Positions 3,201 to 56,486 of a DNA stretch of 64,000 nt are shown in pieces. A program made the translations under genes and the position numbers. The stretch's first letter is position 1; every line of letters starts with the position of its first letter. The notes beneath the pieces are model-generated. The model was not told the DNA's origin and ran no database searches. It saw only the letters and a program-made list of their open reading frames with translations. Source of the DNA: Pelecanus crispus (lineage: Eukaryota; Chordata; Aves; Pelecaniformes; Pelecanidae); contig NC_134649.1 of NCBI RefSeq assembly GCF_030463565.1, positions 320,001 to 384,000 on the forward strand, in the 5' to 3' direction.

Positions 3201-6200
3201 GGACAGGAACATAAGTTTAAAAAAAATCATCTTGATAAACTGAGGAAGCGATCTCGAAAAAACAGCATGCAATTCAATAAGGGACACAGTTCTCCACGAC
3301 TGCTAGACAGGACATAGGTCAAACAGGCGATGGGGAAGGCAAAGTCAAGCACTACCACTAAAATATGTCCTTCTGCAATTCCCAGGTAGATGGGGATGAA
3401 CTAAAAGATCTAAGAAGGTCTAGATTTCCCCAACACAAAACCTTCCTTTTGTCTTCACCTGCCCCAACACTCCCTCCTGAAGCCACATGAGTCTCAGAGC
3501 CACAGATCTGTTGGTTCCAACACCAAAACTGGAGTCCCCCTCCTCACCTTCCGAAAGAGCCGCTGGCTGCCCCCACCTGCTGATGTCGGGTAGTAAATAT
3601 ACACATTATGATCTTCAGCACTGACTGGCTTCTCTACAAATGGCTTTGGGAAAACAGCTCCATTTACCTCCACATGGTCCTCTCCTTCCACCAAGTTGCA
3701 CTCTGAAGACAAAGCACAGCAGCAGCATGTTAGGAAAGGGTGAGACAGCCCTAGTGCGGAACCGAAGCCCTTCAGTCCTGGCCAGTCAGCCAGTTTTGCT
3801 GTTGGAACCTCTGTCCGCAAAAACCAACAGACTTGTGAATCAGGCCTCTTCAAGCTGATTATCAGTACCTGTTCTCTGCAGAACATCTGAAATAGTACAG
3901 GACGTGAAAATGGCTTTCAGTAGAGCCTGGACACTGACCTTCTGGTTTATCAGGGTCTCGATTGAGCACAGCATAGCGGGGCAAGTCTATTCCCTCTTCT
4001 TGAAGGATCCGATACACTTCACGCCTGTAGAGGACAGAAACAGTGTCAGAAGAGTCTAGAAGGTCCTCAGTGCATGGCAAGGGAAAAGCTTCACTCCCAC
4101 TGATGAACAAAGTCAAATGAACACAGAAAAGCCTCAAGACAGAGTGCAAATACTTCTCAGCACATGCTCTCCAGATAAGACCTACAGGCTATGGGGCGTG
4201 CCTCAGTCCTACTCCAGACAGAGGTGTCCCAGAGAAAATCTCTACTTGGCCTAAACATGGATGCTTATTTACTAGCACATGCCCAATCCACAGCAACGCG
4301 CCCAGCACACACCACCTACCCAGATCTGCCCTCTCAAAGGGTGCCCTGTCACGCTAAGCTGCTCAACACCCAGGCCAAGCAGATGCAGCAGAGCCTCTTC
4401 TCATCCTGTGTCAGTGGGGAAACCACAATTCTTTCACTAGAGCTACACCTTGGGGTGCTTGTCAGCACCTACAGGAACACTGCTCACAACCCAAAGACAC
4501 GGCAGGAGGTTTAAGGTCTGGTATGAGCCCTACCCCTACACAGCCAAAGCAGTCTGGCTGTATGCACTGAAGTACGTGACTGCTGGTGGCCTCTACCAAG
4601 AGCTGACTGAGAGGCCTCTTGAAATGTCTGACCAACATACTCTCCTCAGAATCTGACCTGGCCTTGTTCCCAATTTCCGTCCCAGAATCCCATCCCACTA
4701 CTTGGCTCTCCTACTCAGAGACTAGTCTTTTTGTCTTAGTTGTGGCAGTCTCGTTCTGTGAGACCTCTTCCACTTCCTACTTCCTTTAGCCATTCCGTAC
4801 AAGACATTTGCACCAGCCAATGAAACATGTCAAGTCTCGATGGTTTTACCCCCAAATCTATCCCACTCCATGTTTTGGAGAAACAACCCCTAAAAGCCAC
4901 TGCTTAGGTCCCCTTCCTCCCCATCTCACTCATTTGCTTGTGGCCAGGAAGACGAAGTTTGCACAGCATGCTGAGGAGAGGAATCAGACAAAGGAAGAAG
5001 GAAGGGGCTTTAGTGGATCACAGACACCTACCTGTCCTGGATATAATACTGCATATCAAGGTCATTAATCAGAAATGGCTTGCACAGCTTGGCATAAGCA
5101 ACCGCTTTATCCAGGGGGAATCCTGAAATATGGGGGGGGAGAATGAGTGGAAGCTCCCTTGCCCAGATCTCAAGTAGGCTAAGGCCTGCCACGGACTTTT
5201 TACCTTTGGAGTGGAACGATATTAGGCAGTCACACGAGGGCCAGTTCTCCACCGGTTCATTCAGAATAACATCTTCCCCCATAATCACCACTGTGATATA
5301 CTCAAACTTGCACAGACGCTCCAGAATCTGTGTCATGGGCTTTGACTTGGACTTTTTGGTCATGGCACAGATTCCAACCACAATCTGCCGTTCAGGTGGC
5401 TAAGGGAAGACAGAGATCAGTTTAGTACAGGGTCAACTACTTTACTGAATTTAAACTATAACAGTAGAAATGCAGCAATGCAGAACAAACAAGGGATTTT
5501 CTTCCAACCTTATGCACTCATGGCTCTTGCTGGACTCGAACCCATACACACTTCCAGCTCCCACTAGAGTCCACTGGGGGACATCATTAAGGAGCAGCCC
5601 AACACAACCGCTTCTTTGCCAGGTAGTATGTACCTCCTCCTTTTACTGGGCACTAACGCTAAGGTCAGAAGTAAATATCTGGCACCTGAACAAGCAGCAG
5701 GGCCTGGAATCCCACATCATGTTCTCTGGCCCATAACTCACCAAGACAGTTGGTGGACTTAGGTAGGCTCAGAGAAGAGCCGCAAATGTTTTCTAGCAAA
5801 AAAGTCCAGGAGCTCAGTCTGTTTGTCTCATCTGAGAGAAAATGAAGGGGAGATTACAACAGTAAGTAGCTATGAGTAGAAGAGAAACAGTACCAAGTGC
5901 TCTTCCACACATCTGACAAAGGTACAAGATCCCTTGCCGTTCCCTACGGTTGTGCCACGCAGCCTGGTGCCATGTCCCCTGAAGTCCTGACTGCCTGCGG
6001 CCTGAGCAGCAACCGCGCAAACCCCAGCTGAGACCCAGGAATTCTGCACAGATGCTCCAACCCAGAAGGCCAGGATCTCCTTACCGACTCCTCCTCTTCA
6101 TCATCTTCAAAGAAATCAGTTTCGTCTGTCTTCATGTTTGATCCCAGAAAGTCTGTCTCATCATCCCTGGAACCGACAACAAACCTGGGAGTGGAGTTCT

Positions 6201-12538: not shown

Positions 12539-22339
<9,801 letters not shown>

Positions 22340-22438
22340 GCTGGACCAAGGCAGCACCAGCCTCATGGGACACAGCTCCTCCCGTAGCTTACATGATCTC
22401 TGTGCGTCCTGTTACCCGCAACGCGCCAGGCCAGACCC

Positions 22439-22444
22439 CATAAA
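22439..22444 (+). terminator. CKMT1A: CKMT1 probable polyadenylation signal (CATAAA)
   Basis: A CATAAA hexamer, a known weaker variant of AATAAA, lies 100 bp after the CKMT1 stop. It is the only plausible signal before the convergent STRC 3' end. Confidence 0.5.
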
Positions 22445-22824
22445 CATGCACTGCTGTAGCCATGGCTCGGTCTCCTCCTTACCCCAGCACCCGCCACCCC
22501 ACTGGTGTCCCCAGCACCCCGTGCCCCTGCAGAGGTGCACCCACCCAGGTCTGGGTTTCCTGCACCTGCCCTGAGCAGCCCTCCCCGGGATTTCCCTGAG
22601 CCACTGCTGCCCTGGGGAGCAGGCCTGGGGGGGCCACTGGGGCTGCCCTGGTCTGGGGGGCCGCAAGGGACCGCATGTGGGTAGGGAACCAGGGCTGGGG
22701 GGCAGCTTGCTGCAGTGCCAGGAGCTGCAGGGACAGTCAGGGCTGGGCAGGGAAAGCTGCTCTGGGACGACGTGTTGCTGCAGGCAGGCAGGGAGCAGAG
22801 CTCATTGCTTGTGCCCATCACAAG

Positions 22825-22830
22825 TTTATT
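22825..22830 (-). terminator. STRC: STRC polyadenylation signal (AATAAA)
   Basis: Canonical AATAAA on the minus strand, 11 bp downstream of the STRC stop codon (22843-22841). This very short 3' UTR ends tail-to-tail with CKMT1, leaving fewer than 400 bp between the two transcripts. Confidence 0.85.
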
Positions 22831-22840
22831 CCTGGGATGC

Positions 22841-25800
22841 TCACAGAAAGCAGCGGGGTAGGCAGAGGAGGAGAGCCAAGGTGAAGTCAGACTGGGGCCT
22901 GGCTCCGCTCCTGCCTGCAGGAGAGAAAGCATCATCAGAGCTGAGCGTGCCAGCCCTGGCACGCTGTGGAGGGGCTCACATCCCTGCTGCTCCCAGGAGC
23001 CCTCACGGTGTTTACACGCATGTACACGTGCGCACATGCACGTGCATGCACAGCTCTGGGCAGGGACAGCGCAGTCTGCTGCTGCCCCCAGAGTGGCTGT
23101 TTGGGACCTGGGTTTAGGGCAGGGGCAGCAGCAGGGAGGTCTCATTTGGGCAGAGGTGGGACGGAACATGGCCTGACAGCGAGCGTGAGCTGGGCAGGCA
23201 GCGGGACCAGCCTTGTCATGGGGCAGTGCTGCGGGCACCAGGGGCCAAACCCGCACAACCTGAGCCCTCCCGGCATCCACGGGTGCCCGTGCTGAGCCCA
23301 GAGGTGCAGAGCAGGGACAAGGGGCAAGCGGGCAGGGGAGCCACCCGTGGCGGGCAGGCTGGGCGCTGCATGGGGACAGAAGCCACCCTGCCGCTCTCAC
23401 CTTGGCCGTCCTGGGCAGACTCTCCCTCGCGCTGGGCGCTGGCCAGGGCCTGGCGCTGGGCGCTGCTGAGCCACCGGCGCTGCCCCAGGGTGACAGCTGC
23501 AGCCTGGGCGCTGGAGAGGGTGCGCAGCTGAGCTGGGCCAAACACCACCTGTGGGGACAGGGCAGCCAGCCACGGCGAGGCCCTGCGCCTGCTCCCCAGC
23601 ACAGCCAGGACACGTCCCACCTCCGTCCCTCAGCGTCCAGCGCGGGGGGCTCCCACCACGCTGGCCCAGCCTGGGATCCCCCCTCCCCAGCCGAGCATGC
23701 TGGCAGGGGATGCTGGGAACTCACTGCGAACTTGGGTGCCGGCACAGCAGCGATGGCCTGGGGCGTGAGTGCCCAGATCTGTTCGGGGACCAGTGCAGAG
23801 AGGATGATGTCGGGGAGCCCAGCTGGGGAACAGAGTGCAGGGTCAGGACACCATCCCCAGGCACAGGGGCCAGCAGGGCAGACAGCCACAACCATGGGAC
23901 ATAGCGCTGTCCCAGCCCTCACCTGCCAGCGTCCCGACCTCCGTGAAGATTTCGGGTCCCCAGGCAGAGGCCAGGCCAAAGGCAGCACTGGAGGTCAGGT
24001 GGGCAGCCAGCACCTCCGCCTGCTGCTCTGTGCAGCGCAGGCTCAGTGAGCCCAGGAACGGGGCAGCTTTGCTGCAGGGAGCAGGCAGCATCAGGTGGCC
24101 GCATGCTGGGGCGCAGCACCCCTGCACGCTCAGCCCGCAGTCCCCGCGGGCGCACACCCACCTGAGCTCCCGACTGTCCAGGCTCCGCAGCTCAGCCACC
24201 GGCAGCCCGCAGAGCAGGTGCCCCAGTGCCACCAGCTCGGGCAGCCCCAGGTCCCGGGCGCTCCCCCTGCGCTGCCGCAGGAAGGCGGACACCACAGCCC
24301 GCATCTGGGGGAAAGCCCGTCACGGGGGCCAGCCGCCCCCCGCCCCCCCGGCCCCCAGGACCTCACCTGCTCGGGCGACCAGCCGTCCAGCTCCCCCAGG
24401 GCGGAGAGGGTCTCCCAGTCGGGCAGCAGCAGCTCCCGCAGCTCCAGCTCACCCAGCTGGGTGGCCAGCCGGCCCAGGCGCAGGGTCTGGGCTGGCTCCA
24501 GCGCCCGGGTGCTGCCCCACAGCTGCAGCACCAGCAGCACCGCGAGCTGCCGGCAGCCCCTGGCCCAGCGCCGCCGGGCAGCGCCAGCACGGACCCCCAC
24601 GGGCAGCCCCCCAAGGCCAGCACAGCTGCCCACAGACAGACCCCAAGGCCAGCACAGCCCTCCAAGGACAACCCCCCCCCAAGGCCAGCACAGCCCTCCC
24701 ACGGGCAGCCCCCCAAGGCCAGCACCCCCTGGCAGCCCCCCAAGGCCACCCCCCTCCCCCAGGGCCAGCCCAGCCCAGCCAGCCCTGCAGAGCCCCGTCA
24801 CACCCACCAGCATGGCCCCACGTATCTGCCCTCACCCGCCGGGCCTGGCCCAGGGCAGCCCGGAGCTGGTCTGGGCGCAGCGCCGGGTCCTGGCTGAGCA
24901 GCCCCAGGCAGCCCTCCAGCTGCTGGGGGGCCATGGCGGCCAGCTGGGCCGCGCTCCACGCCGCAGGGAAGGTGGCACGCATGTCAGCACAGCTGGGCAC
25001 GGGGGCTGCAGAGCCAGCCTGAGTGGGCTGGCCCCAGCCCCAGGTCCCCCGCAGTGCCAGCTGCGGGGTGCACAAGGGGGGGACACCACCTGGGGAGGAG
25101 ATGGCATGGGGACACCGAGCACCGGGGACACAGGGCCAGCCCAGGGAGGGGACGGCATGGGGGACACTGGGCAGCAGGGGCACAAAGCGTATGGGCAGGG
25201 CATGGGAGGGCACCAGAGACAGGCGGTGCACGAGCCGGGACAGGGGCCATGCAGGGCTCGGGGGGGGGAGTGCATGGTCTCACCTTGGTCGCCCGGCCTG
25301 GCAGCTGCCACCAGCGGGGCCACCAGCACTTCTTGCGGGCTGGGGCCCTCACCCAGCGTGCCAGAGGGGTGGCAGAGGCGTCCCAGCTCACTCTGCTCCC
25401 AGTTCTGCTGGCTCTGCAGCAGCTGCTCCACTGTGTCTCTGCTCAGCAAGTCCTGGGGCAGCACCAGGCAGACATGGAGAGAGGGGCCAGGACAGACCCC
25501 ACCGGCAGAAAGGCCCAGGGGAGCAGCAAGGACGGCACAGTCACAGGGGCAGGAGTGTTGATGGGATGGCACAGCCACAAGGACAAGGCACCGGCAGGGA
25601 CAGCACAACCATGAGGATGGGACGCCACTGGGGATGGCATGGCCACGAGGATGGGGCACCAGTGGGGATGGCACAGCCATGGGGATGGGGCATGGGGAGC
25701 GTCAACACAGCTGCAGGACCAGGCGGAGAGGCTGGGGCATGGCCAGCCGCAGGGCAGCACGGTGGCAGTGGGACAGGACACGGTGCTCACCCGGGGGATG

Positions 25801-28800
25801 GCGCGCAGGCTCTCAAGGGGCAGCAGGAAGACCAGGCGCCCCAGCTGCTGCAGGGTGGGCAGGTGCCAGCCTTGGGGGGGCCTGCGGGAGCAGGGGTCAA
25901 GGTGGTGCTGGCAGGGCCCTGTGCCCCCCTGGCCACCACCTACCCCAGCGCCTGCTCCGACAGCAGCAGCCGCCCCAGCTCGGCGGCTGCCTCTGCAGCC
26001 AGGCAGGTGTCCTGCAGGTCCCCCAGCCGTGGCAGCAGGCTCTCGGGCTGGATGCGGGCCACACTCTCCCGGCCCAGGAACCCCACCAGTGGGCCCAGAC
26101 GGTCCAGGTCCTCCCCAGCCAGCTCCCTCCCTACCGGGAGCTGCTGCAGCGGGGAGAGCAGAGGAGTGAGGGTGGGTGCCTGCATCTCCCCACACCCCTT
26201 GCAGGGCTCCCTCCCCTTACCAGGGAGCGCAGGGCCCTGCGGGCCAGAGCTGCCTGGCGGGTGGCTGGCAGGGCCAGCAGGCTGCGGGGCTGGCGGGTCG
26301 TGTGGTCCAGCACCAGCCGCATCACGGCATCAGGCAGCATCTCCACCATCTTCGCCCTGCGGGAGCCAGAACACAGCTGGGCACTGCAGGGCAAGGGGCT
26401 GCTCTGCCCAGGGATGAATGGGGCACCGAGCCCCATCCTGCAGACCCCCTCTCACAGCAGGGGTGCCCAGGCACCCTGGGCTGTCCCCAGGGACAGCTCC
26501 TGCCACCCGTCCCTGCTCCACACTTGTGGGCAGCAGGGCAGGGGCTCACCAGCCCCTTGGAGACACAAGGAGGGTGATGGGCCCAAGGAGGGGGCTGTAG
26601 GCCAGCAGGCAATGCTTTTCCCCCCAGGGAAAGGGGGCAGTGGGAGCAGAAGGGGTGGCCCACATCCCTGCCTCCCAGGGCAGGCTGCTCCCAACACCTA
26701 CGGTAACTCCATGAGGAACCGAGGTCCCAGCCATGCCAGCTCCTCCTCGGAGAGCGCAGGACGCCTGAGCACCTCCTCCTGCACGCAGCGCCTCTGGGGA
26801 CGCCATGCTGTGAGCGCAGGGCAGGGACAGGCTGCCCGCTAGCCACGGTGGTCGTGGAGCCTTCTCCTTACCAGGCTGGCAGGCAGGGAGCGGGGCTGTG
26901 TGTGGAGGGTCCGGAGAGCCCCCAGGAAATCCTCCCAGCCCAGCTCCTGCAGCGCGGCGCAGCTCATGCCCACCACCAGCGAGCCCAGGGCACTGCAGGA
27001 CAACGGCGTTAGACCCTGTTGGGGCTTCACCGCCCCCCACCCCACAGAGACCCGCTCAACCCTGCCCAGGGCACCCACCCACCTCCTGGACAGGGCAACC
27101 AACCCTCTCCCAGCTCCCTTCCCTCTGTGGGACCCCACAGTCTGCTCCCAAACGCCCCTGTCCCTGTGCCCCAGCTGGCACCCATCAGCCAGCCCAGGTG
27201 GGCTGCTCTCACCCAGCAGTGCAGTGGCTGCAGTTAGTGCCGGCTCCCACCTCCCTCCAGAGAAGCTGGGCCTGTTGGGGGGGCAGCAGTGGGAGGCACG
27301 GGGGTGCAGCACCTTCCCCCGCAGCCCTGTGCCTGGCCTCTGACCTGTTGTGGGGACCAGGGCAGGTTCGGGTCCCGTGGAGCCCCCCACAGAGCATGTG
27401 TGCCAGGACGCAGGAGCTGGAGGGGCAGCAGGGGCAGCAGGCAGTGGGGCCAGCTGTCCAGGGGCTGCAGAGCCTGCAGCAGGGATGCCATCTGTGCCGC
27501 CGAGAGCAGGGGTAGGGCTGGCCCTAGGCATGCACAGCCTTGGACCCGGAGAGGGGCCAGGACAGCTGCCAGCACCGTGGGTCCCAGGCCTGGCAGCAGG
27601 GGACACAGCCTGGCTGCTTCCCCTACCGTCACCTGCAGAGAAACGCGCTGGCCTCGCTCGGGCAGCCGTGCTGCAGCAGGGCTGCATCTTGCACGGGGAC
27701 CCTGCGACAGCACGGGGACTGGGGTGGCTGGCAGCCCATGCAGGCGTGGGGGGGTGAGATCTGGGGCTGCACTCAGGCACCAGGGCACAGCACCCACAGC
27801 CCGTCCTTTTCCTGCAGAGGCACCTCAGACACTCACGTTGTCCCTCTGGACAGCCCGTGCAAGCAGGAAGGATGCCTGGGGGGCAGGACCAGTGGTGGTC
27901 AGCAGGGCTAGCACAGCCCTGGCAGGGGCGGGGGGTGAGGCTCGGAGGCTGCCTGGCTGCACTGCGCTGCAGTCCCTGACAGTGCCCCAGGCCCAGGGGC
28001 CCCCTGCCCAGGGCATGTGCAGCCGCTGGACTCACCTGGGCACGCGTCAGCTGCGTCGGCCGCAGCTCGGGCAGGAGGGCGTTCAGCTGGGCAGATGACA
28101 GGCGCTCCAGGAAGCCCACTCCCATCTCAGGGAGGACACCCCTCCACGCTGGCAGCTCCCCGGGGCTCACCATGGACAGGCTGGTGGAGCGCAGCAAGTC
28201 TGCCAGGGCGAGCATGACCTGCCAGCACAGAGCAGGAGAGGCCATGAGCCCAGGGCCGGTGCGCAGCTTGCCCCACTCCCTGTCACAGGAGCCGGCAGGG
28301 GAAAGAACGGAGCTGATGTGCTGCCTGACCAGGGGCTGCTGCCCTGGCGCCCCTACTCGTGCCGGCACATTGCGGCTGGGCTCCCCAAGCGAGCAAGGGG
28401 ATGGGAGCCGAGCTCCGCAGGGCGCCCATCCACGAGGCGCCCCTGGGGGTGGCCTGGCACAGCCCACGCATCCCTCCTGGGGTCTGGCTCACCCGCCCGT
28501 GCTGCTGTAGGGTCCCCGCGGCTGCACACGCCAGCAGGCTCTGCTCCACTGCCCCCTGAGGGTCCTGCAGCCATGCCAGGTCCTGCAGCTCCTCGGGGCT
28601 CAGGAAGCAGGCAAGGGCCCCCAGCCTGCACAGAAAAAGCCTGTTAGCAGGCACGGGCAGCCCTGCCAGCACCCATCCTGGCCCGCTCCGCAGCAAGGCT
28701 ATGGCCCTCGCAGCAGGACCAAGGCCCTGCACCAGCCCGGCTTTGGGCATGGCTGTACTGGCACTGGCAGCCCCGGTCACGCTCACCTGCGCCCCGGCTC

Positions 28801-31800
28801 GGGGCCAGCCGCACGGCTCCTGTTCGCCAGGCTGCCTGCTATGTGGCGGCCCTGCACCAGCCCCAGCCGCAGCAGCTGCCAGCTGTCCCCCAGCCCCCAG
28901 ATCTGGGCAGGCAAAAGGGGAGACTTGGCTCAGGCCTCCTGACCGGAGCTGGGGCTCCCAGCTGTGGGATCAGTGTGCGGGGCCAAGGAAGGGCCTGTAG
29001 GGTTCCCAGCCAGGGGGTTGCAGGATCAGGGGTGCAGGGTTGGGCAGAGCAGGATTCCCAGCTCGGGGGTGCAGGGGTCCCAGCTCACTGGGTGCAGGGT
29101 TGGGATCCCCACCTGCCACGGGGTGAGGGCGCACTGGCTGGGCAGAGCAGCCTGCATGGGGGTCCAGGGTTCGCATCCCACCTGCTGGGGCGTGAGCTGC
29201 AGGAAGCAGCGCAGCGGCAAGTGGGGCAGCAGTGGCAGGACGGCACGGAGGAAGCCAAGGGGCCACGTGGACACAGCCCCGAGGAAGGGGGCCTGCAGCA
29301 GGCGCCTGGCAAAGGCGGCCTTCTGCCCCCGCGTCAGGCGGGCACTGTGAGTCCGCAGGGCAGCGAGGCTGTGGGGACAGAGTGCCGGGGCACAGCTGCA
29401 GAGAGACCTCCCAGGCCTGCACCAAGCCTGCACCCACCCCAAATGGCACCCCAGAGACCATCACCAAGCACGTGCCCTGCAGAGCCCAGGACCCAGGGGC
29501 ACTTAGACTCCTGCATGGCCATCGCATGGCGGGCTTGGGCTGGGGCTCTGCAGGCGACGGCAATGCAGGGCACAGGCCGGAGCTGGCCGCACCACGCATG
29601 CAGGCAGCCCAGGCACCCAGCGCTGCTTACACGCTCTCGTTGGCCAGGAGGGCCGGCGGGAGCCTCGCAATGTCGGACACGGCCATGAAGGGGATGAACT
29701 GCGACAGACTGACAAACAGCTCTGGGGTGAGATGGGGCAACCTTCGAAGCAGCAGCACGGCCAGCGACTGCATCGCCTCCTCCCTGGACATAGGTGATGG
29801 CACCTGCAAAGCTGTGTGAGCCCCAGCTCTGGCAGGACACAGCCCTGAGCAGCCAGCACAGCCCAGTGCCACCCAGCTGAGCTGCAGGAGAGCATCCCTG
29901 GCATGGGCTCTGCACCCCTGCGCCCAGGCTCTGCACCCCTGCGCCCAGGCTCTGCACACACACACACACACACGCGCACACACACACACACCTGTGCACG
30001 GGCTCTGCACCCCTGCACCCAGGCTCTGCACATGAACCCCCCCCGTGCATGGGCTCTGCAACCCCTCACACGTGGCAGCTCTGAAGTCCGGTGAGCACAG
30101 ACTCTGCACCTGCTCTGTGCAGGGTCTGCACCCCTGTGTGTGGGCCATACCCCCCACATGCTGTGCACCCCCCACATGCAGGCTCTTCTCCCCCATCACA
30201 CAGGCTCTGCAGCCACCGCACATGGGCTCTGCACACCCTGCCCCATCCCAGCCCCTCTAACCACCTCCCCACGCAGCCGGTGCCAGGAGCGGTGCAGCAG
30301 GGCCAGGAAGCGCTGCACAGACTCGGGCCCTGCTGCAAGCAGCAGCCCCTGGAAGCTCTCCTCTGGCATCTGCAGATACTCCTGTGGGGAGGCCACAGCT
30401 CAGCACAGCCGGCGGCATGGACCCAGGCCGCAGGAGCACAGGGAGCAGGCAGACCCTGCACTCTGCAAGATCCCGGGTGGGCCAGGAGCCAACCTGTCCG
30501 GGGCGGGCAGTACCTGCACCAGGATCTCCAAGGCGGGAGCACCCTCGCTGTCCTGGAGCAGGTCCCAGAGCACAGCCTGCAGGAGGGAGCAGAACTGCAC
30601 TCCCAGCCCTGGCCCAGACCTTCCCCCAGAGCTCCTTGCCCAGTGCCCACTGCAGGTCTGGGGCAGCCTTGCTGCCGCGAAGCTGACACAGGGGCAACGG
30701 GGGTGGCTTTGCGCCGAGCTGCAGCCCTGACACCCCACTCCAGGACCGGCCATTCCCAACTGCTGGTGGCTGAGCAGACCACATGCGCCAGTCCTGCTCC
30801 CTCCAGGGCTGGCACTGGACAGGGACCCCGGGACGGGGGCCTGCACCCTGGTCGGACCCCACAGCCAGTGGGAGGGCTCCCCGGCTCTGGCACCCTGACC
30901 GCTGCCCTGCACCCAGGGGGGCCCTCACTCGCCACCCCAGCACTGCCCAACTCACACCAAAGCAGCTCAGCAGCTCCCTCTTGGCTGAGGCCCTGTGCTC
31001 CTGCCCCAGGTACTGGCCCACGGCTCGCAGGATGCCTGTGGACGCGTTTGCCCCGAGCAAGCCCCAGAAGGAGGTGTTGTCCAGGAAGCTGGAGAGGAGA
31101 ATGGCCTCACTCAGCCGCTCCCCGGCCATCTGCCCAGCCTCCTCTTGTCCAGAGAGGGCCAGGCTGCGGTCAAGCAGGCGCAGGAGGTAGTTCACGTGGC
31201 GGGCCCAGCCTGGAGCCTCCTCCTGGCATCGCGGGAGCTGCGAGGCCAGCCCCAGCAGGTAGGCAGCCGGGTCCGGGCAGAGCTCCAGAGCGTCCAGCCT
31301 GAGGGGCAGGGGCAGGAGCGCCAGGAGCTGCTGCAGCAGGCAGCGTCCCCCAGGCAGGGCGCTCTGACAGCGCACCCCGACCGCAGGCTGGGGGTGCCCC
31401 AGCAGCTGCAGGAGGGAGGTGTTGGTGCACACCAGCTCCTGGAAGCAGCTGGGACTTCCAGTCCTGCACAGCTCCAAGAGGCTGGCGTTCCCGCGTGCCC
31501 ACAGGCTCCAGCCCCTGAAGGAGCAGGGGTCTGTGCTCCCAGGCTCTGAGGCACTGGGAGTCTGTGCCTGGGGCTGGGGACCGCCACACAGCTGGGAAAG
31601 CCAGACCCGGAGGTTGGTGAGCAGTAACTCACGGCTCCCACTGCCACAGAGCCGCGCACCCCAGAGCGTGCGGCTTCTCAGGAAGCAGCTCCAGGCGTTA
31701 TCCCAGCGTGCACCCAGTGGGCAGGCGCTGCGGCTGGGGGGCCAGCCCCCTGCCAGGCCCCAGGCCAGGTCGGCACAGAGCTGCTCCAGCAGGACCTGCT

Positions 31801-33714
31801 GGGGCCCGGGGTTCTCCCTCAAGGAGGTGTTGCTGCAGACGGTGCTGTTGAACTGGGCAGGGTAGCGCTCGCGGCAGGCCCGGGCCCATGCTGAGCCCCC
31901 CTCGCCCGCAGAGAGGTACCAGGCTGCGTTGGAGCAGGCAGCCCCCAGGTCCTGGCCGGAGCCCCGGGAGCTGTTGAAGAGGTTGCAGTAGAGGTAGACA
32001 GTGAAGTTGGAGACGCCTGGCAGCCCGGGGACGCTGTCATTGCACGCAGCCTCCAGAACGGGGGGCAGGAGCAAGGGCTGTCCCTGGGGCACGGCAGCTG
32101 CTGCCCGGTGGACAGGCTGGAGGCAGCCAGGGAGGGGTGGCGGCGTGGGGAGCACCCCAGCCGCGAAGCCCAGGCCCCGGGCATCCCAGCTGAGGTTGCG
32201 GTGGAAGCCCCTGGAGGGCAGAGACCAGATCAGTGACCGCGCCGGCCGGGGCAGCCCCAGCACCGCTCTCCAACTTAGCCGCCCGCTGCGGCCCTGCCTG
32301 CCCCGCAGGAACCCCTCGGCGGCCCAGGTGCCCCCGCTGCCCGGCCCGCCCCACCCCACGGCCAGGGCGCCCAGCACGGCTCCATGGCCCGGCCCATCCC
32401 GGCCAGCCGGGACGCGGGTCCGGAGCCACCCGGCGCAGCAGCCCCGCACCCTCGGGCCGAGCTCCCCCAGCCCCGGCCCGCTGCCCACCCCCCCCGAGCC
32501 TCGGGCGGCCCCAGCGACCCGCGGGGCGGGGGCCGGGCTCCCCGGGAGCGGCGGGGCCGTGCGGCGGCCCGGACTCACCAGAGCAGCAGCTGCGGCAGCG
32601 TCCCTGCGGGCGAGCGCGGCCGTCAGGCGGCGGCGGGGCCCCGGGCAGCGGGGAGCGGGAGCGGGGTCCGGCGGCGGGGAGCGGGGTCCGGCGGCGGGGC
32701 TCACCAGAGCAGCGCCCGTCGCTGCCGGTGCGCGGGGCCCCCAGCGCCCGCGCCGCCGCCCGCAGCAGGGCGTCCCGCAGCCCCGGCGCGCTGCTCCGGA
32801 GGGGCCCGCACAGCGCAGGGCCCGCGCCCCGCTCCCCCGCCCCGGCCCGGCCCGCCGGCAGCTCCCGGGGCGCGGGGGGCGGCCCCCCGACGGCGCGGCC
32901 CCGCAGCCCACGGGGGAGGCCGAGGAGCGCGGCCCGGCGCCGGCCGCCCCGCCACGGGAGCTGCAGCCGCACCGGCCCCCGCGGCTCGCCCGCCTGCCCC
33001 GGGCCGGACGGGAGGCCGGAGAGCTCGCCCGCGCCCCCCCGGGCGCCCCGCGGGGTCGAGGCAGCCCTGCTCGCCGGCGGGGCCCCCGCGGCCTCCCGCG
33101 GGCTCTGCCTGGGGGCTGGCGTCCCCCCGCGCCGCCGGGCTGCGGCTTGCGGGACGGCCGGGACGGTGCCGCTCGGTCGCAGCCCGGCCCGGGCCTGGAG
33201 GACGGGCAGGAGGCGTCGGGGCGCGGCGCCGCTCCCGCCCGAGGCAGCTCCTGCGGGGCAGGGCCCGGCTGGCCGGCACGCCGCACCGCACGGTCCTCGC
33301 CGGCCGCCCCCGGGCTGCCCCGCTGCCCCCGCAGCCCTGCGCGGGGTCCGCGTCCCTCGGGGGCCCTGCGAGCATCGCCCCGCGCCGGCAGCCGACGCGC
33401 GCACACCTGCGGACCCTGCTTTTTGGGACACCCCCCCCCCCCCGGTTCTCCGCGCAGCTCCGCACCATGTCACCACCCGAGACCACCACCCGCGTTTCCA
33501 GAGCTGGTGGGACACAAACATCGCCGGGGACCACCGCAGCGCCCAGGTGTGCAGGGCAGCCCCCACCCCGGGAGCGGGCTCTCTGCCTCGGGAGCTATGC
33601 CCCTCTCCGCACAGGGGGGTCTGCCCTCTGGGGGGGTCACGCTCACTCACCGGAGCTGGGGTCCCGCAGCAACAGCAGGAGCAGCATCCCAAAGCTGGGA
33701 AGGGAAGGAGCCAT
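22841..33714 (-). CDS. STRC: STRC, stereocilin
   Basis: Extracellular stereocilin/otoancorin/mesothelin-family protein of hair-cell stereocilia. 27 coding exons (5' to 3' starts): 33714, 33250, 32603, 32210 (1,255 nt, to 30956), 30576, 30381, 29803, 29368, 28902, 28625, 28218, 27875, 27632, 27271, 26992, 26793, 26356, 26143, 25881, 25452, 25005, 24522, 24304, 24071, 23822, 23548 and 22914-22841. Every junction is in phase; the total is 1,664 codons plus stop (human 1,775). Exon 1 is a signal peptide (MLLLLLL). Diagnostic matches to human include '[16 protein letters not shown]', '[10 protein letters not shown]', 'FPAAWSAAQ' and 'WGPEIFTE'. The last exon ends in a hydrophobic tail ([10 protein letters not shown]) suited to GPI anchoring. 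The N-terminal exon 33250-32705 is Arg/Pro/Gly-rich and poorly conserved, so its acceptor is the least certain. There are many N-glycosylation sequons in exon 4. It appears intact. Confidence 0.93.
24601..24775. repeat. Minisatellite in a STRC intron
   Basis: About five imperfect copies of a roughly 30-36 bp unit built on 'ccaaggccagcacagcc', in the intron between exons starting 25005 and 24522. It stretches this intron relative to its neighbours. Confidence 0.8.
25560..25700. repeat. Minisatellite in a STRC intron
   Basis: About four imperfect copies of a roughly 36-bp unit containing 'ggatggcacagccatgagg', in the intron between exons starting 25881 and 25452. Confidence 0.75.
29905..30070. 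repeat. Minisatellite plus (CA)n in a STRC intron
   Basis: Tandem copies of a roughly 22-bp unit ('ggctctgcacccctgcgccc') are interrupted by a (CA)n tract with two CG steps at about 29955-29991. Related 'gctctgca' copies continue to about 30235. All lie in the intron between exons starting 30381 and 29803. Confidence 0.85.
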
Positions 33715-33949
33715 TCCTGCGTCCTGCGGCCGGCAGGAATGAAAGAGAGGGAGAGATGAACGAGGGCCCGCAGGGCCTGCACCGGCAGGTGGGGCCTGCA
33801 CCGGCAGGTGCCCGCGTCCCCTGGCTCCAGGCCCAGCCACTCTCGCATCCTCTGTGGCTCCCAGCCCTGCTCCGACACAGGCAGCCCCAAAGACCCCCTG
33901 TCCCACGGACCGCCGAGGTGGGGCTGTGCCGCAGCCCCCCGCTGCCTGC

Positions 33950-34095
33950 CCCTGCACAGCCCCTGCCCCTGCCCCAGCCCCTGCCCAGCCCCTGCCCCAG
34001 CCCCTGCCCTTGCCCTTGCCCTTGCCCCTGCCCAGCCCCCCAGCCCCTGCCCCAGCCCCTGCCCAGCCCCAGCCCCAGCCCCAGCCCTTGCCCGC
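33950..34095. repeat. CCCTGCCCCAGC-type minisatellite upstream of STRC
   Basis: Roughly 140 bp of tandem CCCTGCCCCAG/CCCTTGCC variants immediately upstream of the STRC start exon, in the probable promoter or 5' UTR. It is C-rich on the plus strand (G-rich on the STRC sense strand), so G-quadruplex formation is possible. Confidence 0.85.
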
Positions 34096-34549
34096 TCACG
34101 CCGCTCCTGCCGCCGGGGCTGGAAGCTCCTGGCGCGGCGGGGCTGACTCCCGCAGGCCTCGGCTCGGGGCTGTAACCCGAGGCCGCCGCCGGTGCCGAGC
34201 TCTTGCATTATTGATGCCGGGAGCCCGGCGGGGGCGGCCGGGCCGCGGGGCACTGCCCGGCCCGAGGGCAGCCCGGCTGGCTGGGCCGGTGCGGGATCAG
34301 CCCCCGCGGTGGGTCTGCCCGGCACAAGGGCGGCGGCCCCCGGGCTGACCGGAGCGGGACGGCACCCCCGCACCCCCCCACCCCGCACCGGCGGCGGGCC
34401 CGGAGCGGGCGGCAGCGCCCCCTGCTGGCCCCGGGGCGCGCCGGCGCGGAGTAACGGGAGGGGGCGGCGGGCGGGCTGCGGGTGGCGGTGCCCCTTTGGC
34501 TGGAGGCGGCGGGCGGCTCCCGGCGGGGCGTGCCGCTCTTCCCAGGCCA

Positions 34550-34700
34550 CGGGATGGGATAGGTGGGGGAGTGCCCATCCCTGGAGGGGTTCAACAAACG
34601 GGCAGAGGTGGCACTTTGGGACATGGTTTAGTGGGCATGGGGGTGTTGGGGTGATGGTTGGGCTGATGATCTTGGAGATCCTTCCCAACCTTAGTGATTC
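34550..34700 (+). mobile_element. CR1 LINE 3' fragment
   Basis: Bird CR1 3' end wording, from 'gtgcccatccctggagg' through 'cttggagatccttcccaacc' to about 34700. Severely 5'-truncated, plus orientation, without the terminal octamer repeat. Confidence 0.85.
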
Positions 34701-34739
34701 CTGGTTGTACTTCATTAAAAATAATCCAGCCACCAAGCC

Positions 34740-34881
34740 AGGAAACATGAAATTGCTACTCTCCCCTTAACTGGTTTAGTGGCGGACTTGGTAATGTTAG
34801 GTTAATGGTTGGACTGGATGATCTTAAAGGTCTTTTCCAACCTCAACGATTCTATGATTCTATGATTCCATGATTCTATGG
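34740..34881 (+). mobile_element. CR1 LINE 3' end with (ATTCTATG)n tail
   Basis: A second, adjacent CR1 3' end in plus orientation, with 'ggttggactggatgatcttaaagg' shortened to its core and a clear (ATTCTATG)n tail at about 34850-34880. It sits directly beside the last CATSPER2-like exon, so it may have cut into that gene's 3' end. Confidence 0.9.
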
Positions 34882-34989
34882 TCCCGGTGCCGGTCCTGAG
34901 CCAGCCCTGCAGCTGGCCCTGCGGCGAGCAGCTGGGCTGTCAGGGCAGGGCAGGGCGAGTCCTGCTGGGTGGGCAGCCGCCCGTGGGGC

Positions 34990-37125
34990 CGCCCCGCGCT
35001 CACCGGCCCAGGCCTGCGGTGCTCCAGCGGGCTGTGCTGCAGCTGCTCCAGCAGCTCCAGGTAGCGGAAGAGTGAGTCCCGGGGCCAGGCCACCGGTGCC
35101 GCCTCCTTGGCTCTCGGTCAGGTTCTGCAGGTCCCGGTGGAGGTGCCGCTGCCGGGGCGCTGCGGGGCACCACCTGCATGTCGCCCTGCAAACGGGCAGC
35201 TGCTTCGCCCTGCTGCAGTGTCTCGCCGGCGTGCAGCGCAGGCCCGGCCCGATGCCCCGCCACCGAGGCCTGCCCAGCCGTGCCCCGCTCAAGGCGTGGG
35301 GCTCTGTGGCTCATGAGACTCACCAGCCTCGCCAGGAGGGCATCACTGACGAGCTTTGCTGGCGGCTTGAGGTCGGAGCTCTTCTCGCAGGGAGCAGCGG
35401 CTTCTCTGCCCAGCTCCACCTCTGGGCTCTGTAACCCTCTGCGGGAGGGAAACCCACCGGTCAGCTCTGGCTCTGGCTGGCCTGGAGCCATGTTCCCCCA
35501 GCACCTGGCTGCTGTACTTGGGTCTGAGCTAGCCCAAATCCAGCCTAGCAGATCTGCTTTGTTTCTGAAGTGGGGAAGGGGCAGAGCATCGTCAGACATG
35601 TCTGGCGCAGGGCTGGGCTTTTTCAGTGCAATATCGATGACAAAAATGCTGGAAATGGCCCAGATGGCTGCCTCCATGACAGTGGTGAACACCTAGTGAA
35701 CATTGGTCCTGTTCATCAGCTCGGGAGGGGAACAGGGGGCAGCTGCTGAAACTCAGCAGTCAGCAAGAGAGACCAGGTTACAGGGTGAGGGCAGGAGCGT
35801 GCTGCTCAAAGGAGAAACAAATGGTGAGATGGAAACACAGGTACTAAATACTGTCCCCCAACGTCCAGCTGAGCTGCCAGACTGGCTGTGATGGGAGGCA
35901 GCGCTCAGAGGCTGAGATTTGAGGGCAAAGGCTAGCTGGGGACACAAGGTCCTGGGGAGGATGGGACACAGCAGGAGGGAAGGCTGCTGCTCTGCGCTGG
36001 CTGTGGCCAGGGAAGGTGGCTATCTGAAATCAGCCCTGGACTTGAATTTGATAGCTAGCGCTGGCTCTCATGGGCATGTCCTGCAAAACTACCACGCAGA
36101 GTGTCCCTTGGCAGCAGCCCTAAGCCTGCTGCTGTGGCGTGTCACGGGGTGCAGCCAGCCCTCCTACACAGCGAGCGCTCAGCCCAGGCAGATCCTGGAG
36201 CAGCGGCGGGGTCAGGCGGGCTCTGTGCAGCGCGGAGAGCCTGTTCCTGCTCACCACCGTCGATCATCAGGATAAGGGTGTTCAGGATGATCAGGAAGAA
36301 GATGCTTTTTATGTACACAGTGGCTGAGTTTTGTCATTGAGAAAAACACAGGACACTACTTATTGCCTGTCAAACTCCATGGGCAGATGCACTTGCAAAG
36401 GGGACTCAGAGGTGCACTGTGGACACGCTGCTCCATGGACCGTGGGTTTCAGGACAAGCTTGGTCCTCGTCTTGGTACACTGGCAGCAGAGTTCTGCCTT
36501 TGACAAGTGATACCTAAAGCACTGGAAAAGCTGTGAAGTGGCCACCATGAAAAGCTGTTGGGGAACAGCTGCCCACCTGAGAAAGAAGTCCCAGGAGAGC
36601 TTGGGACCCAGTGATTCAGCCCTTCTGCACTAATTTGTTCTTATAGTCCCTGCTCAGCCTGCCCTGGACAAAGACTGTCCAGGCTGCCGGTACGCGGAGC
36701 CCATGTCCTGGCAGAAAGCCAGTCTGATCCACCCGGTTCCCAGAGCTCAGCCTCCGCCGTGCCTGGAGGCAGCCTGTGTTCCGTGGCTGGTGCTGCTGCT
36801 GCTGCTGTGTGGCAGATGCTCCCGCAAGCCTGCTGTCATCAGGCTGCCTGTGGAGGATACAGTGCAGGAACTGGGATACCGACAGGAGAAGGAAAGGCCA
36901 GCAGCCCATGTGGACCTTGATGGGGCTGTACAGGCATTCTTCTGGTCTTGCTGCGACTGATGTTGAAACAGACCTGCTGGTGATGGCCAGTGAGCATCAC
37001 CTTCCTCTGCTTCCAGGGATCTGTGTAGAGATCAAGCAACTCCTGAGAGACTCTGCCTTCTCCTCTGCCCAGCAGGGGTAGGAAGCCATGCAGCTGGAGG
37101 GCACTGAAGAAGACCTGGCCAGGCA
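34990..37125 (-). pseudogene. CATSPER2: CATSPER2 relic: N-terminal, S1, S2 and C-terminal exons, pore missing
   Basis: CATSPER2 is a pore-forming subunit of the sperm calcium channel. Four minus-strand segments match human CATSPER2 in order. (1) About 37120-36955: 'QELLDLYTDPWKQRKVMLTG' then 'HHQQVCFNIS', against human 'RELLDPSRQKKLVLGDQHQL..FSI'. (2) 36323-36255: 'IFFLIILNTLILMID', transmembrane S1, with AG acceptor and GTGAGC donor. (3) 35692-35618: 'EAAIWAISSIFVIDIALK', S2, after a CTAG acceptor. (4) 35093-35004: 'WPRDSLFRYLELLEQLQ', nearly identical to the human C-terminus, with a GTGAGC donor. The S2 exon has no evident donor. Only 525 bp separate it from the C-terminal exon, and no frame there encodes S3-S6 or the T.D.W pore. 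The position next to STRC on the same strand equals the human order. Surveys report CatSper genes lost in birds. A reduced functional gene is unlikely but untested. Confidence 0.8.
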
Positions 37126-37129
37126 GCAC

Positions 37130-38500
37130 CCTCCAGACAGAAGCAGATGGGTCGCTGCAGCATGAAGAGGGAAAAAGCCAGCTTTGCTGGACAATTTAGG
37201 AGGCTGTGCTCCAATTCTCTTAGCAGGGTATCGACGCTGAGCTAGCACAAGCAACGATACCCAGCTAGGATCAGGCTGGGCTGTGAACGTGCCTTAAATC
37301 TAGTCATGTATGGCCTCAGCGGCTGCCCTAGAATGACACAGCAGGACCTGGGAGTCCAGATGCCCCTGTCCCATCCAAGGCACTCTTCCCCAGCTATCTT
37401 GTTCACCCTGCTCTGTGTGCAGGCTCAGCCAAGCCTGTGACTGGCTGCTAAGCTGAGATGTGCAGGAATGTTAAAAGCTTCTTTTCTGCAGTGGTACCAA
37501 CAGCAAAGGATGCTGAAGCACAGACTGGGAGAGTATTTTGGAAGCGGACACTACTGCATCCTGCATACGTACACTCCAGCTCCTGTTTGCCAAATTACCA
37601 GATGCAGGAGAATAGCCGTGCCACCTCCTCCTGGTCTAGATGAGACCTGAGCAGAGAACGGGCACAGCTGCAAAAAACCTTCAGGCTGGGCTGACTTACC
37701 GTCCTGCAGCAACCCAAGCAGAGCTGTGGGAAGGGATGGATTTTATTCTGTCTTTTTATTCTTCTTTTCTTAACCTTCCTAAACTTTTGCTAGCCTGGTC
37801 TGGTTTTGGATCCTAGAGTAGCAATTTCTCTAAGGCAAAAAAAGCCCCAGGTGATTATTTTGTCTCTGTAACAGGGAAGCTCAGTTTTTTTTCATTCCTG
37901 CAGTTTGAAGTTCTATCTCTAGAGTCTTTTCCCACTCCTGGGGGTGTTTGAGGAACTGTAATTCCTCCTGTGCTTTTGGAGAAAGCATGTGGTAGCATGA
38001 ATTTGGAACTGCTGTATGCGTTCCCACAAACGAGATTGTTAGCAGTGGTCAGATTTATGCGGCTCTTAAATTGTATTCCTCGTAGGGGACCAGCACAGGA
38101 CCGCAGTGCTACCAGGGTGTGGTGGCAGCGATGTGGGAGCAGGGTGTGCCTGCACAGAGCTGGCCGGTGACGCCGCACACTTCAGCAGATACTCCGAACA
38201 GCGAAGAGAGTATTTCTGACCACACAGCCAAGCAGCGAAAGCTGCAAGTGCAGACTGACATGATGCAGTGGGGAAGACCCGATCCCGGGTTTGGCTCGGA
38301 GCACACGAGTGCTGGAAGCCAGGGGAATGCTGGTCTCCTCCGTAATGCAGGAGCGGTGCTCCCGTGGGATGCTGTGGCTCGGTGTTCACGGGTGGGTGTG
38401 CAAGTGGAGCTGCGGCGCGGCCCGCAGCCCTCGCCGGCCCGCGTGCTGGGTGCTGCTCAGCTGGACACCATCCCGTGGTGCTCTGGGCTGAAACAAGGCC
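37130..38500. other. Unassigned spacer between CATSPER2 relic and PDIA3 CpG island
   Basis: About 1.4 kb with only short open frames on either strand. The 5'-most CATSPER2 exon or promoter might have lain here, but no similarity is visible. There is a T-rich patch near 37740-37780. Confidence 0.4.
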
Positions 38501-38503
38501 CTC

Positions 38504-38580
38504 AACATAGAATCCTAGAATAGTTTAGGTTGGAAAAGACCTTTAAGATCATCCAGTCCAACCATTAACCTACACTACCA
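38504..38580 (-). mobile_element. CR1 LINE 3' end, reverse orientation
   Basis: 'agaatcctagaatagtttag' followed by 'ggttggaaaagacctttaag' and 'tccaaccattaacctacac' is the reverse complement of a CR1 3' end. The 'accattaaccta' wording is that of neoavian CR1 subfamilies as I remember them. Confidence 0.9.
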
Positions 38581-38596
38581 AGTCTACTCTAACCAA

Positions 38597-38652
38597 TCAA
38601 GGGTAGACTAGACTAAAACTAGACATAGACTAAGACTAGACTAGACTAGACA
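38597..38652. repeat. Tandem TAGAC-type simple repeat beside CR1
   Basis: Degenerate pentamer/hexamer tract of 'tagac', 'actagac' and 'taagac' units directly abutting the CR1 fragment at 38504-38580, probably grown from the element's flank. Confidence 0.85.
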
Positions 38653-38973
38653 TCACGGCCTTGTGTTCCGCACAGGCTAGCGGTGTGCTTTGCAGACACG
38701 CCGGCCGCGGCAGGGTTTTCAACAAACACGCAGTGATGAAATGAATGGAATCCCTTTCCCTTGGAGACCACAGCCATTCCCACAGCGTGCGGCTCCCGGG
38801 GAGGCTGCGCCTCCAGCCGCGGCACCCAGGCCCGGCAGGGGCAGGCCCCGCGCCCGGCGGGACTCGGGGCTGGACGCTGGGACGGGGCCGGGCGGCGGGA
38901 GGGAGCCCGGGGCTACGCCGCGGCTCGGGGACGGGGCCGAGCCCTGAGCGCGGGGCAGCCCAGCACGGTCGGG

Positions 38974-39018
38974 TCGGGCCGGGCCGGGCCGGGCCGGGCC
39001 GGGCCGGGCCGAGCCGGG
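38974..39018 (+). repeat. (GGGCC)n pentamer tract upstream of PDIA3
   Basis: About eight to nine tandem GGGCC units with GGGTC and GAGCC variants, about 300 bp upstream of the PDIA3 start codon. Runs of three G at five-base spacing make a G-quadruplex plausible on the plus strand. Confidence 0.9.
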
Positions 39019-39321
39019 AGCGATCGTCGCAGGGCCCAGCCGCGGCCCGGGGGGGCCCGAGGAGCCCGGTCCCGCCGCATCCCGAGCGCCGCCGGCCGGG
39101 GCAGCGAGAGGCGGGGTCGCCGCTGCTGGCCCCGCCCACCGCGGTCGGCAGCCCATTGGCCGGGGCTGGCGTGACACGCCGCACGGCGCCCAACGGAGAG
39201 CTGCCACACGGCAGATCCGGCCGGGGAGGCGGGACTTCCGGCCTGCGGCCCCCGGCGCCTGTTCAGCCGCCGCCGCCGCCGAGGAGGGAGCCCCGCGCCG
39301 CGCCGCCCCGCTCCGCTCGCC

Positions 39322-47441
<8,120 letters not shown>

Positions 47442-54460: not shown

Positions 54461-56486
54461 ATGCCGGGACCCTTGCCCGGCGGCTCCCCGGAGAGGGAGG
54501 CGGGGGCCGTGGGGCGGCCGGGGGGGCCCGGCCGGGGCAGGCGGGTGCGGTTCCGCCTGCCCCACACCGCCATCGCGCTGCCGTCGGTGTGCGAGGAGGA
54601 GCGGCTCTTCTACCGGCGGCTGGAGGCGCTGGCGGCCCCGGGGCCCGGCGGCTTCGGGCCGCTCTTCGCGGCCGACGGCTGGAGCGACCTGACGGGTGAG
54701 CGCCCGCGGGCGGCCCCGGGGGAAGCCGGGCCGGGCGTGCCGGGGGGAGCCGAGCCGGGGGTGCCGGAGGAAGCCGGGTCGGGGGTGCCGGGGGGAGCCG
54801 GGCCGGGGGCGTGCCGGGCCCCGGGGGTCCCGGTGCGGCTCTCAGGGCCGCCCCCCCCCCGCAGAGGACCGGCTGCTGCGGAAGCGTGTGGTGCGGGACG
54901 GGCAGGGCGGCCCGCGGCCGCGGCCGGGCCAGGAGGTGTCGGTGAAGGTGCTGGGCGCCCTGGAGGACGGCGGGCTGGTGGAGCGGGACCCGCGGCTCAG
55001 CTTCGTGCCAGGCCACGGCGACGTCGTGCAGGTCAGCCCCGGCCGGGCCGCGGTGCGGGCTGAGCGCCTCCCGCTACCGCGCCCGGCCAGCCCCGCCGTG
55101 CCCGCGTCCGCAGGCGCTGGAGCTGGGCGTCCCCACCATGCAGCCCGGGGAGGTCTCCTTCTTCCTCGCCGCCTTCCCCTACGGCTACGGCCGCCCGGGC
55201 AGGTAGGGCGGGCGGGCGGGCGGGGGCCGGGAGGGCCGGGGCCGGGGGGTCGAGGCGTCGGGGGCCGGGGGCAGCCGGCGCTGTGCCCGCAGGGAGCCCG
55301 ACGTGCCGCCCGAGGCACCGCTGCTCTTCGAGGTGACGCTGCTGGAGGTGCGGGACGGCCCCGAGCGGCAGCGGCTGCCGCCCGCCGCCCTCCTGCGCCT
55401 GGGCGCGCAGCGGAGGGAGCGGGGCAACTTCCACTTCGCGCGGGGCGACTTCGCGGCAGCGCTGCGCTCCTACCGCCTGGCCCTGCGCGCCCTCGACGGC
55501 CCCGCCGCCGGTGAGACCGGGCGGGGAGGGGGGAGCCGGGGCTGCGGGGCTCCTGGGGGGCTCCTGCAGGGCCGGGGCGCTGAGGCCGCGCTCGCCCCGC
55601 AGCCCCGCCCGGGCCGCAGGAGGAAGAGGAGCTGCGGGAGCAGCGCGTCAAGTGCTTCAACAACTGCGCGGCCGCCGAGCTGAAGCTGCAGCGGGCGGGC
55701 GAGGCGCTGGCGGCCTGCGAGGCGGCCCTGCGCATCAGCCCGGACAACGGCCGGGCCCTGCTCCGGCGGGGGCAGGTGAGCCCCGCGCCGCCCCCCGCCC
55801 GCCCGCCCCGGCCGCCCGCCCGCCACCGCCCCCTCCTCTCCCCGCAGCTGCTGGCGCAGCAGGGCCGGGACGCGGAGGCCGCGCTCGTCCTGAGGAGAGC
55901 CCTGGAGCTGGACCCGACCAGCAAGGTCCGGCGGGGCGGGCGGGGGTCCCGCGGGAGCCCGGCTCGGGGGGCACCGGGGCCGCCGGGGGTCCCGCCGGAG
56001 CCCGCCCCGCCGCAGCCGCCCCGCCGCCCGCAGGTGATCCACGCCGAGCTCTCGCGGCTGGCGAAGCGCCGGAGCCCCCCGGCCCCGCAGGAGCCCCGCC
56101 ACGGCCCAGCGCCGCCGCCGAGCCCCGGGTGCGTAGGCGCGCCGGCGAACCGGGCCGCCCGGGGACGGGCCGCGGCGGAGGGGGGGCGCGGGGGCGGTCA
56201 CGGCGGCCCCTCCCCGGAGCCCCCCGGGATGGCGGACGGGCTGCGGGGCCCGGCCCGGCGGCTGCAGCGGCTCCGCGCGCCCGGCCGAGGGGCGGGGAAA
56301 GCGTTGGCCACGCCCCTTTTCCCGCCCCACGTCGCTCGCCCCGCCCCCCGCACGGCTTCGGGGCCCGCCCCCCGCGTCATGACGGGGCGTGGCCCGCTCC
56401 CTGTGCGTGGGCGCGGCTCCGCGGCTCTGGCGCCTGCGCCGCAGCTTCCGGCTTTTTCGCCCCCGCCGGCGGAATGGCAGCCGTAG
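54461..56486 (+). CDS. FKBP8-like immunophilin with TPR domain; 3' end uncertain
   Basis: Seven exons: 54461-54695, 54865-55031, 55114-55202, 55293-55510, 55603-55775, 55848-55925 and 56034 onward, all in phase. The protein resembles FKBP8 (FKBP38). A degenerate FKBP domain shows 'GHGDVVQALELGVPTMQPGE' and 'PPEAPLLFEVTLLEV'. The TPR region shows 'RERGNFHFARGDFAAALRSY', 'VKCFNN', 'PDNGRALLRRGQLLAQQG' and 'IHAELSRLAKRR'. FKBP8 has a C-terminal transmembrane anchor; none is visible here. After 56128 either a donor (GG|GTGCGT) leads to an unseen last exon, or the frame reads on to a stop at 56486. No polyadenylation signal is evident before SERF2. It may be the non-mammalian FKBP8 paralog that fish databases call fkbp16, but I am not certain. 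It is extremely GC-rich. Confidence 0.8.

Follow-up and report, generated by a model that had tools for sequence, protein, structure and literature searches.

CatSper is essential for sperm in mammals. The closest described counterpart of the locus reported here is in chicken, where the syntenic region contains short degenerate CatSper2 fragments (Cai and Clapham 2008, PMC2572835). A 2019 study mentions 'fragments of CATSPER2' in chicken and no trace of the gene in zebra finch; in both species it lists CATSPER3, B, D and E as fragments, and it records CATSPER1, 4 and G in ratites, these last three being absent from chicken and zebra finch (PMC6679542). According to another source, CatSper is retained in Apteryx (kiwi) and Tinamus (tinamou), and Struthio (ostrich) has three alpha subunits (PMC6660944), which contradicts the view, ascribed to comparative surveys in the first-pass annotation of the present DNA, that CatSper genes are absent from birds. 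A contrary report describes birds as lacking CatSper1 only and is based on database sequences, with six birds for CatSper2 (PMC11289002). In the literature searched, no account of the CATSPER2 locus of the present species was found. The novelty implied by the annotation does not hold at the level of the gene, CATSPER2 fragments being already known from chicken (PMC2572835, PMC6679542).

The window, that is, the whole stretch of DNA analysed, comprises 64,000 nucleotides of Pelecanus crispus. On its minus strand it most probably contains a unitary pseudogene of CATSPER2, still at the ancestral site of that gene between STRC and PDIA3 (estimated probability about 0.94).

The interval between STRC and PDIA3

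The neighbouring features are as follows.

5031..5399, minus strand: PPIP5K1 exon(s), Pfam PF18086 PPIP5K2_N, E=4.5e-38; the name PPIP5K1 is assumed from synteny
12539..22336, plus strand: CKMT1, tblastn with human CKMT1, nine collinear HSPs
22366..33740, minus strand: STRC (stereocilin), approximate extent, Pfam PF21058, putative outer limits
34798..34879, plus strand: repeat fragment just beyond the C-terminal block of the relic, outer limit placed by eye
39322..47396, plus strand: PDIA3, tblastn with human PDIA3, start codon read

The Stereocilin family PF21058 was found in four of the ten minus-strand ORFs scanned, at 28.0–31.1 kb, two of the four matches being over the curated cut-off. 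The exons of PDIA3 follow one another in order, with 9 of 14 HSPs 75–95% identical. In the outer flanks, eight chosen ORFs were scanned with Pfam and a family was found in two. The gene order is CKMT1(+)–STRC(−)–relic(−)–PDIA3(+), with the relic on the same strand as STRC. We take the human order to be the same, the human duplication not being present here; with STRC recognised by Pfam and CKMT1 and PDIA3 by tblastn, the earlier claim that the locus lies beside STRC as in humans stands, subject to that order.

Several other elements were observed in these flanks. The repeat fragment at 34798..34879, presumably CR1-like, has an inverted copy at 38506-38572 (96% over 67 b). An array of short CCCCTG/CCCAGC units occupies 33945-34105, just upstream of the STRC coding region, and an open stretch with TPR repeats is located at 55584-56483 on the plus strand, downstream of PDIA3.

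Four blocks of the relic can be read on the minus strand. They are hundreds of bases apart, and two of the four have plausible splice borders.

37021-36935, minus strand: N-terminal block, human aa 49-77, 10/29 identical in the chain alignment
up to 37130, minus strand: weaker N-terminal extension, read by eye, uncounted
36255..36327, minus strand: S1 block (IFFLIILNTLILMID); chain piece 36303-36259, human aa 114-128, 8/15 identical
35621..35722, minus strand: S2 block (ELMNRTN ... MEAAIWAISSIFVIDIALK), human aa 130-164; chain pieces 35722-35702 (aa 130-136, 4/7) and 35680-35621 (aa 145-164, 9/20)
35117..35620, minus strand: gap of 504 b at the expected site of S3-S6 and of most of the C-terminal linker, with shuffle-level scores only
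35005..35185, minus strand: C-terminal block (AWPRDSLFRYLELLEQLQ...); chain piece 35090-35013, human aa 490-514, 18/25 identical

The alignment was produced by frameshift- and jump-tolerant chaining against the minus strand of the STRC–PDIA3 interval (33741-39321). The query was human CATSPER2 (Q96P56), a sequence that matched mouse CatSper2 (7eeb_B) at E=9.9e-225; human and mouse were the CATSPER2 references aligned, so the exon boundaries and the deletion discussed below are inferred. A jump cost of 8 half-bits resulted in meaningless all-over chains and was raised ahead of any statistics, to 20 half-bits for the counted chain. Filler blocks of 21–29 half-bits in that chain were left uncounted; the ELMNRTN piece of S2, also of 21 half-bits, adjoins the S2 block and was retained for that reason. 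Raising the jump cost to 26 reduces the human chain to the four blocks listed above plus a single filler at 39.1 kb.

The human chain scores 219 on the interval and the mouse chain 196. The maximum was 139 among 200 dinucleotide shuffles of the interval, 147 among 200 shuffled proteins and 141 among 68 other tiles of the window, so that 219 exceeds all 468 of these controls by at least 72; the plus strand of the interval gives 129 and the reversed protein 119. When the C-terminal block is left out (aa 1-470), the protein still scores 168, more than any of 150 shuffles (maximum 152), and aa 1-165 alone, from the N-terminus to S2, score 131, again more than any of 150 (maximum 91). The reading of four minus-strand blocks matching human CATSPER2 in order is thereby borne out, as is that of a positional fossil of CATSPER2 beside STRC in a bird, to which the order of the neighbours also contributes.

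Taken one by one, the blocks are very unequal. The C-terminal block, used alone, has mouse CatSper2 (7eeb_B) as its top PDB chain (E=1.1e-5), and tblastn on the window detects it at E=1.35e-5; it is the only individually significant block of the four. The other three have tblastn E-values of 0.54, 0.54 and 1.2, and unrelated places of the window appear at 0.18, 0.24 and 0.93 among the matches listed. The N-terminal block alone, as a PDB query, retrieved no CatSper among 26 matches. The evidence for the three weaker blocks is their collinearity and their place. Chance resemblance of hydrophobic and charged segments would accord with E-values of 0.5–1.2 that are no better than those of unrelated places, and with the ability of T-rich DNA to imitate membrane segments: one S3-S6 tile, scoring 98, beat all 100 tile-wide shuffles. 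The same 98, however, was reached by 2/150 local shuffles and 1/150 shuffled proteins, whereas the chain lies above every control, aa 1-165 exceed 150/150 shuffles and the blocks are positioned as expected. Blocks at the level of chance, the outcome that the annotation had named as fatal to its claim, are refuted at the present sensitivity, and we regard this explanation as having a negligible probability.

The missing core and the lesions

The channel core could not be located. In the interval, S3-S6 (aa 166-376) score 56 against a shuffle mean of 59.7, with 107/150 shuffles equal or higher; on the plus strand of the interval the score is 69, which 18/150 shuffles reach. Within the 504-b gap, the score of S3-S6 is reached by 30/150 shuffles and that of aa 377-489 by 104/150, which upholds the earlier observation that S3-S6 and the pore have no place between the S2 and C-terminal blocks. 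Neither six transmembrane segments nor a pore loop were found, with S3-S6 at chance in the interval and no other CATSPER2-like exon found in the assembly. Human–mouse identity is 0.80 in S3-S6 and 0.62–0.78 in the parts before S3-S6; had drift been the only process, S3-S6 should not have vanished while S1 and S2 survived. With conservation in S3-S6 no lower than in the retained parts, and a gap of only 504 b, a deletion is the simplest account.

Over the whole window, the best of 84 S3-S6 tiles is the one scoring 98, on the plus strand at 37.5-38.05 kb. An inverted S3-S4 segment was considered there, its tile having beaten its own tile-wide shuffles (0/100 reached it). This candidate was rejected on the local and protein shuffles given above, on a local piece whose score was reached by 7/200, and as the best of 84 tiles.

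A separate open stretch at 35325-35438 on the minus strand, with acceptor TCCCGCAG and donor GTGAGT, is situated between the S2 and C-terminal blocks. It matches no CATSPER2 segment and is uncounted; it could represent a linker exon that has been lost. Likewise uncounted is a candidate for the last exon, read by eye as GQLQGWLRTGT near 34.92 kb.

Two stops were read in the sequence itself.

35693..35695, minus strand: in-frame TAG within the S2 block
35118..35120, minus strand: TGA in the WPRD frame (WPRDSLFRY), 10 codons upstream of W

If the exon starts at the nearest good acceptor (35185), the TGA falls inside it. The upstream homologous stretch of the C-terminal block, resembling human VHENLPGLMEMDQ, is in a frame other than that of WPRDSLFRYLELLEQLQ, and the 85-aa open frame at this block is a stop-to-stop ORF in which no ATG precedes the conserved part or falls within it. 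S1 and the C-terminal block both have plausible borders. The S1 exon would begin at 36323, behind a candidate acceptor, and end at 36255, where a phase-1 donor GTGAGC follows (GGT G|GTGAGC); the C-terminal exon would begin at 35185, again behind a candidate acceptor, and end at about 35004, with GTGAGC as its donor. No AG in phase was found ahead of the S2 block, and its acceptor looks lost. The first-pass annotation had credited three blocks with plausible splice sites; S1 and the C-terminal block retain that status, but S2 lacks an in-phase acceptor. With the TAG, the TGA and this missing acceptor, no open reading frame joined by splice sites was found.

The assembly (1,314,409,820 bases in 310 contigs) was searched with a CATSPER2 query, with matches collected up to E=10. 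Among the 32 matches, the C-terminal block of the relic ranked 13th (75%, E=0.18). The remaining 31 are 21–40% identical, many of them at sites that also match the ion-channel family PF00520, and none is another CATSPER2-like exon. The same search missed the N-terminal, S1 and S2 blocks of the relic itself and so is informative on well-kept exons only; the same type of search recovered CATSPER3 exons at 34–56%. No intact copy was found elsewhere in the 310 contigs, in a search blind to badly decayed exons.

These data bear on whether the gene could be functional in the animal, with the S3-S6 exons lost by the assembly through collapse of GC-rich sequence. The locus is GC-rich (0.665 at 34–36 kb), and GC-rich settings are where bird assemblies lose sequence. 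The window, however, is without any N, no other CATSPER2-like exon was found in the 310 contigs, S2 carries an independent stop, the frame of the C-terminal exon is closed, and the partners CATSPER4, CATSPERG and the CATSPER1 piece were undetected. A gene lost only in the assembly is accordingly very improbable.

Preservation of the C-terminal block and the course of decay

In the core of the C-terminal block, WPRDSLFRYLELLEQLQ, 15 of 17 residues equal those of human CATSPER2. Neutral decay was simulated by mutating the bird's own 17-codon core with human as the ancestral state, ignoring that this core is the best-kept piece. The probability of keeping at least 15/17 is 0.74 at 0.05 and 0.32 at 0.10 substitutions per site, falling to 0.08 at 0.15, 0.04 at 0.20 and 0.01 at 0.25. 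The core thus fits neutral decay up to roughly 0.15–0.2 substitutions per site. PMC2946954 cites neutral rates in birds of 2-3.9e-9 per site per year; taken with the simulation, they allow plain decay over tens of millions of years. Decay lasting a few tens of millions of years agrees well with the core, and decay since about the base of neognaths is at the edge (P about 0.04–0.08), the core being a little better kept than expected. Neither the recent decay nor the retained non-channel use proposed in the annotation is required, as neutral decay fits the 15/17 core.

A dead channel whose C-terminal exon survives in a different role, either as a peptide or within another transcript, would be in keeping with the 15/17 identical residues, the 85-aa frame and the good donor GTGAGC. 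Nevertheless, the TGA closes the frame 10 codons upstream and an ATG is absent before and in the conserved part, so the exon is in less good state than had been claimed. The end of the protein is also near-invariant between human and mouse, with 38 of the last 40 CATSPER2 residues identical, and ordinary decay from such a conserved start explains the condition of the block. We consider this reuse highly unlikely and favour a plain pseudogene.

According to the history that we propose, CATSPER2 would have been ancestral, common to mammals and the bird line, and would have become dispensable once the CatSper complex had been dismantled on the bird line. One or more deletions may then have removed the exons for about aa 166-475, after which the remainder would have drifted without selection. 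Judged by its sequence, the relic encodes no channel and most likely has no function.

Other CatSper genes and comparison with described loci

Remnants of other subunits were sought in the assembly. CATSPER4 gave 11 matches, none convincing (best E 0.07). A 168-aa C-terminal piece of CATSPER1 used as query gave three matches at 23–26% (best E 0.008), and the piece was regarded as undetected; the CATSPERG domain, with two matches in the assembly, both under the cut-off, was also undetected. The CATSPERB domain has five matches and the CATSPERD domain four, three of these within 948 b on contig C2. CATSPER3 has 31 matches, of which the best three and a weaker fourth are in order on contig C8.

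C6:55606024-55611127, minus strand: CATSPERB C-terminal domain, three fragments in order over 5.1 kb, two over the Pfam cut-off and one with a stop
C2:126428888-126429835, plus strand: CATSPERD-like stretch of 948 b, intronless, with stops and frame changes
C8:3966268-3973708, plus strand: extent of the CATSPER3 chain, from a chain alignment run without shuffle controls
C8:3967225-3967473, 3971015-3971185, 3971566-3971706 and 3973287-3973424, plus strand: strong CATSPER3 pieces, the others being weak

The CATSPERD-like stretch is probably a processed retrocopy. As a side observation, the assembly has four cytochrome b matches, on C1, C3 and C4. A nuclear mitochondrial DNA copy lies at C3:42662200-42667600 on the minus strand, where what we take to be ND5, then cytochrome b and, on the other strand, ND6 were recognised by eye. 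The order ND5–cytochrome b–ND6 is typical of birds. ARAGORN predicted 0 tRNAs in this copy.

No stop or frameshift was found in the CATSPER3 chain pieces. The core has three open stretches, 83, 61 and 47 codons long, and retains the pore motif TVDGW; the pore exon matches mouse CatSper3 in PDB at E=1.2e-13. One donor is lost: after the pore exon (...FSLVT) the sequence is CTAAGT, not GT. For the three open stretches, the probability of no stop is 0.16 at 0.10 and 0.04 at 0.20 substitutions per site, and allowing for frameshifts at an assumed rate lowers these values further. Given the open stretches and these probabilities, the death of CATSPER3 may postdate that of CATSPER2, or the gene may still be read by means of an unusual splice. 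A stronger version, in which the complex decayed out of step and CATSPER3 was under selection long after its obligate partners had died, is tentative and on balance doubtful; if true, CATSPER3 would have had a role independent of the CatSper tetramer, one that either continues or came to an end only recently. The uneven decay with CATSPER3 is a more interesting lead than the CATSPER2 relic. Apart from CATSPER3, the pattern is the neognath pattern of PMC6679542.

The legible blocks of the relic could date the loss of CATSPER2 once sister species are aligned, and dating the losses in birds gene by gene would indicate which subunit was lost first and whether any outlived the complex.

Compared with functional CATSPER2 (human Q96P56; mouse 7eeb_B), the relic has the N-terminal, S1, S2 and C-terminal segments and the STRC neighbourhood, but differs in the missing S3-S6 and pore, the stop in S2 and the closed C-terminal frame. 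Its likeness to chicken, as described in the sources cited at the outset, extends to the same gene, the same kind of decay and the syntenic region; chicken is also without CATSPER1, CATSPER4 and CATSPERG and retains CATSPER3, B, D and E fragments. The relic is a further example, after chicken, of a known kind of remnant.
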